Below are positions 27,881-64,000 of a stretch of DNA of 64,000 nt, in pieces. Below the pieces are notes generated by a model. The model saw only the letters and a list, made by a program, of their open reading frames with translations, was not told where the DNA came from and ran no database searches. The position numbers and the translations under genes were made by a program. The stretch covers positions 1 to 64,000 of the forward strand of contig JAFSAC010000061.1 of the NCBI GenBank assembly GCA_017442265.1, in the 5' to 3' direction. This DNA comes from Clostridia bacterium. GTDB lineage: Bacteria > Bacillota > Clostridia > Oscillospirales > Acutalibacteraceae. The stretch's first letter is position 1. The number at the start of each line of letters is the position of its first letter.

Positions 27881-27907
27881 CTCAAAGCATACAAAAAATT
27901 CGCTTTT

Positions 27908-28079
27908 GGTGATAGCTCTCCGCGTTGATGCGACAACAACAGAGCTGTTAATCCCTGCTGCCAGCCCGGGTCGGTGGCTGTCCCCGACCCGTCTTCGGCA
28001 CCCACGCCTTTCCTCCGCTTCCGTCGCAGCCGACGTTTTCAAAACGGTCTACTCATCGTGCAATGCACCTCTATCTGTC
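27908..28079 (-). ncRNA. Lysine riboswitch (L-box)
   Basis: On the minus strand the leader has the conserved AGAGGTGC near its 5' end, GGAAAGG...GCCGAAG in the core, and GGAGAGCTATC at the 3' end. GATAG (28072-28076) pairs with CTATC (27911-27915) to close P1. It sits directly upstream of dapA-lysA with a terminator between, as in known lysine-repressed transcription attenuators. Confidence 0.92.
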
Positions 28080-28082
28080 GTT

Positions 28083-44724: not shown

Positions 44725-46026
44725 ATGCAAACTTTGTTATCGGTTTCGGTCGCGATGCTGACCGGACTGTTGATGACCCGGGTGTTTAAACCGTTAAAAC
44801 TGCCGGCGGTGACCGCCTATCTGGTTGCCGGTATTTTGATCGGTCCTTACTGTCTCGGGGCGCTTCATATTCCCGGCTTTGGCTTCACTTCGGCAGAAGC
44901 GGTCGCCCGCATGGACCTCGTATCCGAGATCGCGCTCGGCTTTATCGCCTTTTCGATCGGCAACGAATTTCGTATGAAAGATTTAAAAGCCACCGGCAAG
45001 CAGGCGGCGATCATCGGTACCGCCCAGGCGCTGGTCACCGCCCTTTTCGTGGTGTTCGCCCTGTTTGGTGCGCATCTGTTGATGCCGGACATTCTGTCCT
45101 GGCAGCAGGCGCTGGTGCTGGGCGCGATCGCGACCGCCACCGCTCCGGCCGCCACCTTAATGGTGGTGCGGCAGTATAAAGCGAAAGGTCCGCTCACAAA
45201 ACTCCTGCTCCCGATCGTCGCTCTCGACGATGCGGTAGGTCTTATCGTGTTTGCGGTGCTGTTCGGCATTGCAAAAGCCACCACCTCCGCCGGTGCGGAT
45301 ATCCTGTCCATTCTGCTCAATCCTTTGATCGAGATCGCCGCTTCGTTGTTGCTCGGAGCGATCATGGGGTGGCTGCTCACCCTTCTCGAACGCTTTTTCA
45401 ACTCCAACACCAACCGTCTGAATATGACGATCGCGTTCGTGTTCCTCACCGCCTCCCTCTCGATGCTGGAATTTTCAATCGGCCCGGTGACGGTGAGCTT
45501 TTCCTCTCTGCTCGTTTGTATGATGCTCGGCACCGTGTTCTGCAACATCTGTCCGCTATCCGAAAACCTAATGGGCGCGGCGGACAAGTGGACCTCCCCT
45601 CTGTTTGCGCTGTTCTTTGTGGTGAGCGGCGCGAGTTTGGAGCTCGGGGTGTTCACCGATTGGGCGATCGTGGTGGTCGGCGTGCTGTACATTCTGTTCC
45701 GCTCGATCGGAAAATACGTCGGCACCTATTACAGCAGTAAGGCGGTCGGCTGTTCCCGTCCGATCCGTCGGTATCTCGGCATCACCCTTTTTCCGCAGGC
45801 GGGCGTGGCGCTCGGTATGAGTGCGATCGCCATGCAACTCGGCGAGCCGGGACATCTCATCCGCAACATCACCCTGTTTTCCATTTTGATCTACGAGCTG
45901 TTCGGTCCTCTGCTCACCAAGTGGGCGCTCACCCGCGCCGGGGAAATCACCCCGATGCCGGAGGAGGTCAAAAACCGCCGCTCCCTCGCCCTTCACGCCG
46001 CCAAAAACAAACAAAACGAACCATAA
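44725..46026 (+). CDS. CPA-type cation/proton antiporter
   Basis: 433 residues with about 12 membrane helices and the Na+/H+ exchanger fold (Kef-like): PAVTAYLVAGILIGPYCLG near 27, ATATAPAATLMVV near 135, and the Asp pair region LLLPIVALDDAVGLIVFAV near 165. No C-terminal TrkA-N or USP domain is fused, unlike many KefB/C proteins; the tail is 25 charged residues. It exchanges Na+ or K+ for H+; the ion is not readable. Confidence 0.9.
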   Translation: MQTLLSVSVAMLTGLLMTRVFKPLKLPAVTAYLVAGILIGPYCLGALHIPGFGFTSAEAVARMDLVSEIALGFIAFSIGNEFRMKDLKATGKQAAIIGTAQALVTALFVVFALFGAHLLMPDILSWQQALVLGAIATATAPAATLMVVRQYKAKGPLTKLLLPIVALDDAVGLIVFAVLFGIAKATTSAGADILSILLNPLIEIAASLLLGAIMGWLLTLLERFFNSNTNRLNMTIAFVFLTASLSMLEFSIGPVTVSFSSLLVCMMLGTVFCNICPLSENLMGAADKWTSPLFALFFVVSGASLELGVFTDWAIVVVGVLYILFRSIGKYVGTYYSSKAVGCSRPIRRYLGITLFPQAGVALGMSAIAMQLGEPGHLIRNITLFSILIYELFGPLLTKWALTRAGEITPMPEEVKNRRSLALHAAKNKQNEP

Positions 46027-46028
46027 GA

Positions 46029-46062
46029 AAAACACCCGAACGATTTCGTTCGGGTGTTTTTT
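46029..46062. terminator. Bidirectional terminator
   Basis: Stem AAAACACCCGAACG/CGTTCGGGTGTTTT with A and T runs, between the antiporter and GH13 genes. Confidence 0.92.
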
Positions 46063-47937
46063 TTATAACGTAGAATTTCCGACCGCAAACACCGCACCGG
46101 ACAACGGCGGGAGGGTCAGCATTCCGTTTTTGATGCTCCCTTCTCCCAATACCGGTTCCCCGCTCATAAAGGGGGCCGGCACCGCCACCCCGGTAAATTC
46201 CCGGCTGCGGTTGACAGCACACAAAAGACTTTCTTTACCGTGCGAACGGATAAAGCAAACGATATCATCGTTCCCGCGTACCGCTTTAAAATCCCCTTCT
46301 TTTAAAGGGGTCAGTTTTTTCCGAAGGCGACCGAGCGCCTGATACCAACGAAGTAAGAGGGTATCCTCCTGCCCCCACGGGAAACAAGCGCGGTTAAACG
46401 GATCACGGTACCCTTCCATACCCGCCTCGTCGCCGTAATAGATGCACGGTACCCCCGGCAAGCAGAACTGCAGTAAACTTGCCAGCCGCAACCGACGGAG
46501 TCCGAGCGTTCTCTCCGCCTCGGTCAGCTTCTGGGTCGCCTGCCAACTCCGGCGACGGCCGGCCGCCGGCGGACCGCCGAGTACGGTAAGCGCCCGCTCG
46601 GTGTCGTGGGTGCCGATATGGTTCATCAGCAGCCGCACCACCTGCGGCGGATAATTTTCCACGATCCCTTCCACCGTGTTATAAAATGCGGTGGAATCCC
46701 CGCCACACAGGTACTGCAAAATGGCGTTGCAGAAGGGGTAGTTCATCACGCTATCCAATTGACGGCCGAGCAGATACCGCCGGAGGTGTCCGTAGCTTTC
46801 CTTATGACTGGCATCCTCCCACACCTCGCCGAGCAACAGCCCGTCGGGGTTTTCGGCCTTCACCGCCTGGCGCAGTTTTTCAAGAAACGCATCCGGCAGT
46901 TCGTCGGCAACGTCCAGCCGCCAACCCGAAGCGCCCGCCGACATCCAGCGGCGCACCACCCCTTTTTTGCCGGTGATAAACTCCGAAAATCCGCCGGACA
47001 GCTCTTCGGTTTCCGGCAGGGTCACAAAGCCCCACCAACTGGCGTAATCCTCCGGCCAACAGCGGAAATGGTACCAATCATAGTAAGGGGAACCGAGTTC
47101 CCGATAGGCACCGCCCTCCCCGTACCGCCCGTAGCGGTTAAAGTACCGACTATCCGCCCCGGTGTGGCTGAACACCCCGTCGAGCAGCACCCGGATGCCC
47201 CGCTTTTTGGCGGCTTTCATCAACGAGCGAAAATCCTTTTCGTTCCCAAGCAGGGGATCGATCTTTTCGTAATCGGCGGTATCATACCGATGATTGGAAT
47301 GGGCTTCAAAAATGGGGTTGAGATACAGACAGGTGACCCCTAAGGAAGCGAGATAATCCAGTTTTTGTTCGATGCCCTTCAAATCACCGCCGAAATAATC
47401 GTTATTGCGGATTTCCCCGGTCTCGTCCGGTTGCCAGTTGGGCTGTCCTCCCCAATCCTGCCGCAAGATCCGGTCGGACGGCACCTTTTCTTTTTCTTTG
47501 CCGGAACAATGAAACCGGTCGGGAAAAATCTGATAAAACACCCCGCCGACCAGCCAGTCGGGGGTTTTGAAATTCTTTTCATAACAGGTAAGCTGCCACC
47601 GGGGACCGGGCGCGCCCCACAAAGCGGCGGTGCCGTCGGGACAGGCGGTCAGGTACGCTTGCCCCATACCCCAGGCGATTTTAAAGCCGTACCGATACAC
47701 CCCGGCGGTGTCGGGGGTGAAATGACATTCCCACCATTCGTGACTATGATCCGGCTGTCCCGCCCAGAACATATCCTCCTGCCGATCGGGTTTCCCGGCA
47801 CAGGATATGAGAATTTCCGCGCGACAGCATCGCCATTCCCGCGGCAGGCAAAGCCGAAAATGCACAGCCGTACCCTCTTCCACCGCGCCAAACGGCGACC
47901 GGTAGGCAGTATCCCGGGAAGAAAAATACGGTGTCAT
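46063..47937 (-). CDS. GH13 alpha-glucan hydrolase (neopullulanase/cyclomaltodextrinase-like)
   Basis: 624 residues, no signal peptide, so cytoplasmic. An N-terminal CBM34-like beta domain (about 1-125) is followed by the TIM barrel: LYLNPIFEAHSNHRYDTADY, LLDGVFSHTGADSRYFN, the nucleophile Asp in GWRLDVADELPDAF, the acid Glu in LLGEVWEDASH and IGTHDTERAL. A C-terminal beta domain ends the protein. It splits malto-oligosaccharides or pullulan-type linkages. ATG 47937 has AAGGAG upstream; the frame extends far upstream into the pckG antisense and is not coding there. Confidence 0.93.
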   Translation of the reverse strand: MTPYFSSRDTAYRSPFGAVEEGTAVHFRLCLPREWRCCRAEILISCAGKPDRQEDMFWAGQPDHSHEWWECHFTPDTAGVYRYGFKIAWGMGQAYLTACPDGTAALWGAPGPRWQLTCYEKNFKTPDWLVGGVFYQIFPDRFHCSGKEKEKVPSDRILRQDWGGQPNWQPDETGEIRNNDYFGGDLKGIEQKLDYLASLGVTCLYLNPIFEAHSNHRYDTADYEKIDPLLGNEKDFRSLMKAAKKRGIRVLLDGVFSHTGADSRYFNRYGRYGEGGAYRELGSPYYDWYHFRCWPEDYASWWGFVTLPETEELSGGFSEFITGKKGVVRRWMSAGASGWRLDVADELPDAFLEKLRQAVKAENPDGLLLGEVWEDASHKESYGHLRRYLLGRQLDSVMNYPFCNAILQYLCGGDSTAFYNTVEGIVENYPPQVVRLLMNHIGTHDTERALTVLGGPPAAGRRRSWQATQKLTEAERTLGLRRLRLASLLQFCLPGVPCIYYGDEAGMEGYRDPFNRACFPWGQEDTLLLRWYQALGRLRKKLTPLKEGDFKAVRGNDDIVCFIRSHGKESLLCAVNRSREFTGVAVPAPFMSGEPVLGEGSIKNGMLTLPPLSGAVFAVGNSTL

Positions 47938-62700: not shown

Positions 62701-63246
62701 ATGTTTGATGCGTTATATAAAGCGGCGGCGGATGCCGCCAACGAATTATGCGAGGTCGCCCGCCTGCAAGCGGGGGCGATCGTGGTGGTCGGCTGTTCCA
62801 CCAGCGAGGTGATCGGCGATAAGATCGGCACCCATTCGGACGTAGAGGTCGCAGGGGCGGTTTTCCGTGGCATTTACGACGTCCTCACCGAAAAGGGCAT
62901 CTTTTTGGCGGCGCAATGCTGTGAACACCTCAACCGCGCGCTCATCGTAGAGCGGAAAGCGGTACCGGGCGCCGACCCGGTGAACGTCGTTCCGAAGCCC
63001 AAAGCCGGCGGCGCTTTCGCCACCACCGCTTATCAGACCTTCAAAAACCCGGTGGCGCTGGAGGAGATCCGTGCGGATGCCGGGCTGGATATCGGCGGCA
63101 CCCTCATTGGTATGCACCTGAAAAAGGTGGCGGTCCCGGTACGGCTCTCTACCGACCGCATCGGCAAAGCCCCGCTCACCGCCGCCCGCACCCGGTTAAA
63201 AACCATCGGCGGCAGTCGGGCGGTATACGACGAAACCCTGCTGTAA
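62701..63246 (+). CDS. ywlG: YwlG/UPF0340 (TIGR01440) family protein
   Basis: 181 residues, full family length. Conserved blocks IVVVGCSTSEVIGDKIGTHS, AAQCCEHLNRALIVE and DIGGTLIGMHLKKVAVPVR. Widespread in Firmicutes with no proven function. AAAGGAG lies 9 bases upstream of the ATG. A terminator follows, itself inside the hairpin element. Confidence 0.93.
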   Translation: MFDALYKAAADAANELCEVARLQAGAIVVVGCSTSEVIGDKIGTHSDVEVAGAVFRGIYDVLTEKGIFLAAQCCEHLNRALIVERKAVPGADPVNVVPKPKAGGAFATTAYQTFKNPVALEEIRADAGLDIGGTLIGMHLKKVAVPVRLSTDRIGKAPLTAARTRLKTIGGSRAVYDETLL

Positions 63247-63248
63247 TT

Positions 63249-63629
63249 AAAAACACCCGCCAAGGGAGACACTTCATAAAGAAGTAGTCTCCTTTTTTCT
63301 ATACAAAGAGAAAATGACACTTTCGGTTTTTGAAAGTGTCATAGTAGGTTACATACTTTGAGGAAGGTAAATACTTGCCGAAAATAAAGAATATCTTTCT
63401 CGGCGGGTAAAGTGATATTGCAAACTATCGTTTGCAGTGATATTTGACCTGCGGTCAAGTTATATGAAAGCCTTGCGGCTTTCGTTATATTATATCCGCT
63501 CATAAACTGTCCGAAGGACAATATAACTTGGCGAAAGCCAAATATAACTGCGAAGCAATATAACTCGCCGTTAGGCGAATATAACTGAGGCACCTTCCTT
63601 GCGGAGGGTGCCTCAAGGCGGGTGTTTTT
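63249..63629. repeat. Hairpin array with alternating GTKATAT / ATATAAC linkers
   Basis: A 381-bp non-coding element closed by a perfect 13-bp inverted repeat (63249-63261 AAAAACACCCGCC and 63617-63629). Left half: linkers GTGATAT at 63412 and 63437 and GTTATAT at 63459 and 63484, separated by hairpins TGCAAAC/GTTTGCA, TTGACC/GGTCAA and GAAAGCC/GGCTTTC. Right half: linkers ATATAAC at 63521, 63542, 63558 and 63579, the reverse complement of the left linkers, separated by TTGGC/GCCAA, TGC/GCA and TCGCC/GGCGA. Other hairpins (63315-63341 and 63586-63614) sit inside. The left linkers can pair with the right ones, stacking hairpins on a central stem. Confidence 0.88.
63263..63299 (+). terminator. 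Terminator after ywlG
   Basis: Stem GGAGACACTTC/GAAGTaGTCTCC followed by six T; nested just inside the left end of the hairpin array. Confidence 0.88.
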
Positions 63630-63729: not shown

Positions 63730-64000
63730 TCAGTCGATCTTTTTCGGGAATCCCATTTTTGTCAAAACCGTTTCATAACCGCCGTTTCCGTATATCACAC
63801 AGCGGTTCACCCGGCTAATGGTGGCAGAGGAGGCCCCCACCTTGTCCGAAATGTCGTTGTAATTCACCCCGGAGAGCAGCTGTTTTGCCACCTCCAACCG
63901 TTGGGCGGCACCCTCCAGCTCTTTATTGGTGAGCAGATCCTCTAAAAACAGACGGCATTCCTGCTCGTCCTCGATCGTCAGTATCGCCTGAACCAAAAAA
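63730..64000 (-). CDS. YerC/TrpR-like DNA-binding protein, 5'-truncated by the window edge
   Basis: About 90 residues visible, TrpR-type HTH: DLLTNKELEGAAQRLEVAKQ, NYNDISDKVGASSATISRVN and GNGGYETVLTKM, matching the YerC/YecD family of Firmicutes regulators (related to TrpR but without tryptophan-operon context). The start is beyond 64000; family members are about 10 residues longer at the N-terminus. Confidence 0.9.
   Translation of the reverse strand, partial: FLVQAILTIEDEQECRLFLEDLLTNKELEGAAQRLEVAKQLLSGVNYNDISDKVGASSATISRVNRCVIYGNGGYETVLTKMGFPKKID

Follow-up and report, generated by a model that had tools for sequence, protein, structure and literature searches.

What is a short array of hairpins, mirrored about its own center, doing just downstream of a bacterial gene? 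The question is raised by the hairpin array at positions 63249-63629 (381 bp) of a 64-kb stretch of DNA from a gut Clostridia genome, analyzed here in full and called the window. A sequence-only reading had given these coordinates and this length, which proved correct when the sequence was re-read, and had counted eight 7-bp linkers. All eight were located, four on the left (at 63412, 63437, 63459, and 63484) and four on the right (at 63521, 63542, 63558, and 63579). The outer inverted repeat of 13 bp, described there as perfect, pairs AAAAACACCCGCC with GGCGGGTGTTTTT with no mismatch. The left linkers had been called the reverse complement of the right ones; all four right linkers are ATATAAC, and the statement is exact for two of the four on the left (GTTATAT), while the other two (GTGATAT) are one base off. 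The center between the half-arrays, ATATCCGCTC, pairs with the right end, GGCGAATATAA, with one mismatch, and the variable base of this pairing covaries in relatives (A:T, C:G, T:A). The right outer sequence GAGGCAC resembles the left end GAGACAC, which makes a partial terminal inverted repeat. Table 1 gives the positions of all features. Two further features of the window may be recorded: a Trp-repressor-like (YerC-type) gene adjoins the element at 63730-63996 on the minus strand, and a lysine riboswitch (RF00168, 74 bits) lies at 27905-28081, also on the minus strand.

Table 1. Features of the hairpin array and its host locus, in window positions; IVP, 23S_rRNA_IVP protein.
Feature	Position	Strand	Basis
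DUF436 (PF04260) host gene, its terminator the landing site	62701-63246	+	Translation; Pfam E 1.1e-73
Host intrinsic terminator, 5' arm AAAAACACCCGCC	63249-63261	+	Perfect complement of 63617-63629
Short direct repeat AAGG, left copy, possible target duplication	63262-63265		Sequence
Left-end hairpin GGAGACACTTC..GAAGTAGTCTCC with T-run, internal, terminator-like	63265-63298	+	Sequence; common to L150, L181, and L087
Inserted element, IVP-less, about 349 bp	63266-63614		Full-length 90% copy in L087; flanks beyond dissimilar
Left-module hairpin ATGACACTTTC..GAAAGTGTCAT	63314-63342		Occupies the IVP gene position of IVP-encoding copies
Half-array A: linkers GTGATAT, GTGATAT, GTTATAT, GTTATAT and three hairpins	63412-63490	-	Sequence; weak Gut-1 match
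Center ATATCCGCTC..., including hairpin TGTCC..GGACA	63491-63520		Comparison of copies
Half-array B: four ATATAAC linkers and three hairpins, loops GAAA, GAA, GTTA	63521-63585	+	Sequence; Gut-1 match
Right-end hairpin TGAGGCACCTTCC..GGAGGGTGCCTCA	63586-63615		Sequence
Short direct repeat AAGG, right copy, overlapping the 3' terminator arm	63615-63618		Sequence
Host terminator, 3' arm and T-run GGCGGGTGTTTTT	63617-63629	+	Perfect complement of the 5' arm

The folding of the array is far from that of random sequence, with z = -11.4 as DNA and -12.5 as RNA, and none of 100 shuffled versions is as stable. In related arrays, 80-86% of the spacers form hairpins from end to end, compared with 0.3-1.1% of shuffled spacers. 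The outer pair of the stem is T-A in most of these hairpins, and the pair that closes the loop is C-G in 129 of 153. Read outward from the center, 41 of 64 triloops are GNA and 46 of 73 tetraloops are GNNA, with GNYA making up 22 of those 46; the complementary classes TNC and TNNC have zero occurrences in the related arrays. The C(GNA)G and C(GNNA)G loops take opposite polarity in the two halves, so that each strand holds one well-formed half. Loops of both classes are exceptionally stable in single-stranded DNA; in RNA, the preferred class is GNRA. The loop classes, together with the mirrored polarity, suggest that the hairpins form on single-stranded DNA.

The proposal that selection acts on structure and not on sequence holds for the hairpins, whose stems change sequence and yet remain paired across related arrays, as had been anticipated; it fails for the linkers, which are conserved in sequence. 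Nor did the suggested branched fold, with left linkers pairing to right ones, withstand comparison. The variable linker base matches in 73 of 137 nested pairs against 71.4 expected from within-element shuffles, and its correlation between halves is 0.19 (p = 0.12). A linker-linker paired fold was rejected on this lack of compensatory change. Because the linkers do not covary between halves, they are more likely a sequence that is bound than one that is paired.

Copies of the element occur elsewhere. Another gut Clostridia genome (L087) has a full-length copy, 90% identical to that in the window, at an unrelated locus, where its neighbors are a DeoR-type regulator gene and an acetyltransferase-like gene, and similarity to the window ends at the element ends. 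A BLAST search with the whole 391-bp stretch found no second copy in the element's own genome. The expectation that gut Clostridia would hold other copies was confirmed, with arrays in 21 of 60 relatives and Gut-1 matches in 29 of 60; so was the expectation that copies would occupy variable sites, the L087 locus being one case. Genome G059 has four copies of one subfamily, each with 352-354 bp between arms and the arms different; the best of these copies are 95-96% identical to one another. Comparison of such loci shows, at the level of sequence, an element that has moved. A cross-phylum search for an ATATAAC-array pattern returned true arrays along with AT-rich chance matches, with L087, L150, and L168 among the matches listed. 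At one locus (L187, G010:C60:10450-10900), two array elements stand in tandem and their modules are similar.

The outer 13-bp repeat had been taken as the closing stem of the array. It consists instead of the arms of a host terminator, driven apart by the insertion. The repeat starts directly after the DUF436 stop codon, and AAAAACACCCGCC...GGCGGGTGTTTTT has the A-run, GC-stem, and T-run of a bidirectional intrinsic terminator; similar terminators occur elsewhere in the window, for example at 46014-46066. Because related copies sit between differing terminator arms, and because similarity with the L087 copy stops at the element ends, we conclude by comparison of copies that the element of about 349 bp is an insertion in the loop of the intrinsic terminator 3' of the DUF436 gene. 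Split terminator arms surround 14 of 41 related IVP-less copies, as against 3 of 200 mismatched flank pairs in which the flanks were drawn from different copies, and among these insertions the arm sequence differs from copy to copy. In a sister species (the one other genome of the genus of G059), uninterrupted terminators follow the same two genes at both tested sites; these genes, named from their translated ends only, encode a Cys/Met-metabolism-type enzyme and a jag-like protein. An orthologous empty site was also sought among DUF436 orthologues in relatives, most of which have no simple downstream terminator. The flanking direct repeats differ by copy, being AAGG in the window, AACGC in L087, and AA, GA, or none in others (0-5 bp). 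The strict split-arm test finds no clear arms in 27 of the 41 IVP-less copies, and the local terminator is intact at tRNA-linked copies that encode IVP; not every insertion, therefore, fits the loop model simply.

The two half-arrays resemble a known family. In 2010, Gut-1 was published as a noncoding RNA without a function that occurred in human gut sequence only (PMC2864571). At a relaxed threshold, half-array B matches the Rfam Gut-1 model (RF01706) on the minus strand at 63516-63587, with 48.8 bits (E 3.5e-9), which falls below the gathering score of 50 bits; half-array A matches weakly on the plus strand at 63410-63475 (25 bits, E 0.013). Half-array B aligns to all 77 positions of the model, with three hairpins parted by conserved 7-nt linkers. 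Gut-1 matches in relatives reach 89 bits, many of them above the gathering score, and a control set of 14 genomes gave one match, in Escherichia coli, below the cut-off. The consensus of Gut-1 corresponds to one half-array, and its linkers read GUGAAAU. By this alignment, the half-arrays of the window are diverged Gut-1, closely related to RF01706 but not formally part of it. The layout of linkers and hairpins is common to both, but the Gut-1 model describes one half as a standalone noncoding RNA, whereas in the window the insertion is built of two halves that mirror each other, and the linkers are GTKATAT. Neighboring Gut-1 matches often form opposite pairs, as at C5:86265-86449 of the same genome, which implies that Gut-1 is one half of a mirrored element. 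That pair and another locus at C5:80736 (L333 and L332) are Gut-1 arrays with GTGAAAT linkers and no IVP gene seen alongside; each follows a terminator hairpin after similar sequence that ends in CACACCCTCTCCCACCA (a tRNA-like 3' end).

In several array copies, a gene for a 23S_rRNA_IVP protein (PF05635, a four-helix-bundle family, here IVP) directly adjoins the array; the 64-kb window has no IVP gene. Of the 60 relatives, 28 have IVP, 29 have Gut-1, and 22 have both (odds ratio 13, p = 2e-5), so that comparison ties the two phylogenetically as well as physically. The presence of Gut-1 does not track reverse transcriptase (RT) or Y1 transposase, the two enzyme types taken in by this survey, from which DDE and serine enzymes stand apart. 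Neither RT nor Y1 transposase is found in 12 genomes with both Gut-1 and IVP, of which G059 is the most copy-rich, and Y1 transposase is missing from the element's own genome and from G003, G004, G039, G047, G051, G054, G055, and G059. Three IVP-encoding copies between split terminator arms (L324, L323, and L168, of 1236, 1710, and 1323 bp) carry as cargo beside IVP, respectively, an unknown protein, an AraC/Cass2 regulator, and a SAM methyltransferase; no recognized transposase was seen in these three complete copies as read. In IVP-encoding copies, the half-arrays lie together to one side of the gene rather than one at each end. The IVP-less copy L183 and the IVP-encoding L324 share the end sequence with which they begin, and IVP-less copies therefore look like deletion derivatives. 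The window copy, whose ORF was lost or never present, is probably one of these.

Most of about 70 IVP loci have a mirrored array upstream. The linkers vary (GTTATAT, GTTATGA, GTGATGT, GTGAAAT, ACTTCAC, AATTCA), and some loci have plain heptamer repeats (TTCATTA and similar) without hairpins. An inverted 6-mer score of at least 3 is reached in 35% of regions upstream of IVP, 3% of those downstream, and 0% of shuffles or random windows. A tRNA gene lies within 420 nt upstream at 31 of 69 IVP loci, and downstream at 0 of 67. The protein matches the solved structure 2rld (E 3e-29) and, weakly, 2gsc. The genome to which the window belongs (84% complete) has two IVP genes, with linker types unlike those of the window copy. 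Each of the two, at G000:C5:65368-65676 (L308) and C49:46775-47083 (L285), directly follows a tRNA gene and terminator; their arrays consist of TTATTCA heptamers and GATAT hairpins, respectively. Upstream of IVP at eight loci (L252, L249, L263, L271, L281, L284, L301, and L303), the terminators share a tip of approximately TTTTGTC-TACC-GACAAAA on host stems that differ, as if the loop at these tRNA-linked sites came from the element. In L308, L265, and L278, all of the heptamer type, the center between the half-arrays contains one more terminator-arm copy, which is complementary to the 5' arm.

We consider it probable that the array of the window is an IVP-less, likely non-autonomous member of a family of mobile elements whose target is the loop of an intrinsic terminator and whose complete copies carry IVP. 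A complete element comprises two inverted half-arrays and an adjoining IVP gene, in most cases with a single cargo gene; its ends match in part, and the whole lies inside a split terminator. IVP would be the element's own mobility protein, acting with host enzymes, a role favored because RT and Y1 transposase are absent from the 12 genomes above. It would bind the repeated linkers or the hairpins, and its substrate would be the hairpins that single-stranded DNA forms when replication exposes it; the element would then be joined to a terminator hairpin that is likewise extruded. After insertion in the loop, the terminator should still be able to form around the compact folded element, and insertion is for that reason predicted to be nearly harmless. 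IVP, a small helical protein with no known catalytic site, may instead be an accessory or cargo.

Other explanations account for part of the evidence. An ordinary MITE, mobilized in trans by some conventional enzyme (DDE, HUH, or RT) while IVP hitch-hikes, would agree with the partly matching terminal inverted repeats, the short direct repeats, and the greater number of IVP-less than IVP-encoding copies among the arrays collected. We think this unlikely, given the 12 genomes free of RT and Y1 transposase, G059 included (the survey covered these two enzyme types), the complete copies with no recognized transposase, and a target duplication that is not constant. Two particular routes were set aside: movement driven by RT, of a group II intron or DGR-like kind, is disfavored by the RT survey of genomes, and movement by Y1/RAYT is disfavored by the Y1 survey.

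In the original view of Gut-1, the array would be a stand-alone structured noncoding RNA that acts in trans and whose dispersal is incidental. Half-array B does match a covariance model built for a noncoding RNA family (PMC2864571), and folding is strong on both strands. Gut-1, however, corresponds to just one half of the mirrored element, and the opposite polarity of the halves means that in any single transcript the two halves would have different loops. Of the GNNA loops, nearly half are GNYA rather than the RNA-stable GNRA, copies with common ends recur at multiple loci in split terminators, and the array is linked to a protein gene; all of this makes a trans-acting RNA quite improbable. 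The array and the outer stem could also be one regulatory 3' UTR that controls termination or stability of the DUF436 mRNA, and an RNA model does still pair the terminator arms around the folded element. We give this very little credence, since the 90%-identical copy and many relatives lie downstream of unrelated genes, tRNAs included, and a comparable array is present at 0 of 24 orthologous DUF436 loci.

Several known repeat systems invite comparison with the mobile element favored here. MITEs such as Correia, RUP, and bcr are short, multi-copy, intergenic, and strongly folding, with imperfect inverted ends, and the window element is like them in each respect; its family differs in being tied to IVP and not to an IS family, in its terminator-loop target, and in its internal mirrored array. 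REP/BIME sequences with RAYT (Y1) consist of hairpins grouped in inverted sets, with a short stretch of conserved sequence at the base, again as in this family, but here Y1 transposase is absent from many carrier genomes and stem sequence is not conserved. The family is closest to known intervening sequences, from which it differs in target, hairpin-bearing arrays, and cargo. In Coxiella burnetii, the 23S rRNA intervening sequence has heptameric repeats just upstream of an IVP-family ORF, has inverted terminal repeats, and lies within an rRNA helix; 23S rRNA intervening sequences with an S23p/IVP ORF have been proposed to be mobile (PMC4990558). Relatives of the window element likewise carry a gene of the same IVP family with heptameric repeats beside the ORF, have terminal inverted repeats, and insert into a hairpin of a transcribed region. 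Their target, however, is a terminator loop or tRNA-terminator flank rather than an rRNA helix (the window element lies downstream of the DUF436 gene, not inside a 23S rRNA helix), their units bear hairpins, complete copies bear cargo, and the window copy has no ORF. IVP is also homologous to the accessory protein Avd of diversity-generating retroelements (DGR; PMC10053308), but most carrier genomes have no RT.

From 2010 onward Gut-1 has stood as an orphan "RNA," and for decades it has been an open matter what IVP, a widespread four-helix-bundle protein, does. The comparison unites them as parts of a single mobile element, one whose landing site is defined and whose complete copies bear cargo, and so provides a first working hypothesis for both orphans; how intervening sequences move, and what IVP does, become directly testable questions. 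No link of intervening-sequence or IVP repeats with Gut-1 was found in PMC4990558 or the other texts searched, a body of literature apart from subscription journals and preprints, and an earlier description is possible.

Ten IVP loci in annotated records extend the comparison beyond the order. The records, from several phyla, are nine plasmids (cyanobacterial, Bernardetia, Treponema, Monoglobus, and Chlorohelix) and one from a phage collection. Mirrored repeats with a score of at least 3 occur at eight of the ten loci, compared with 2.4% of random flanks, which suggests that the same logic applies outside gut Clostridia. At several of the loci, those of Nostoc and Dolichospermum among them, heptamers on one side of IVP face their reverse complements on the other. 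A broader reading, tentative and somewhat on the doubtful side, is that IVP genes across bacterial phyla belong to transposase-free elements that would travel in the form of hairpin or heptamer arrays of single-stranded DNA and insert into hairpin loops (terminators, rRNA helices), with Gut-1, the 23S intervening sequences, and many unexplained intergenic heptamer repeats as their parts or relics. No IVP was confirmed in IMG/VR. In two phage-labeled records, MT835815 and MT835590, an array or mirrored repeat adjoins IVP; MT835815 was dismissed as a case of phage carriage, as it contains a tRNA and ordinary chromosomal-looking genes, and is unannotated and marked UNVERIFIED. Among the plasmids L376, L379, and L375, IVP lies between hsdS and hsdR, between a helicase and an N6 methylase gene, or beside a short DNA methyltransferase fragment. 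In Akkermansia, a member of a different phylum, several GTTATAT/ATATAAC hairpin arrays flank an IVP gene on both sides (L054, 5745-7030).
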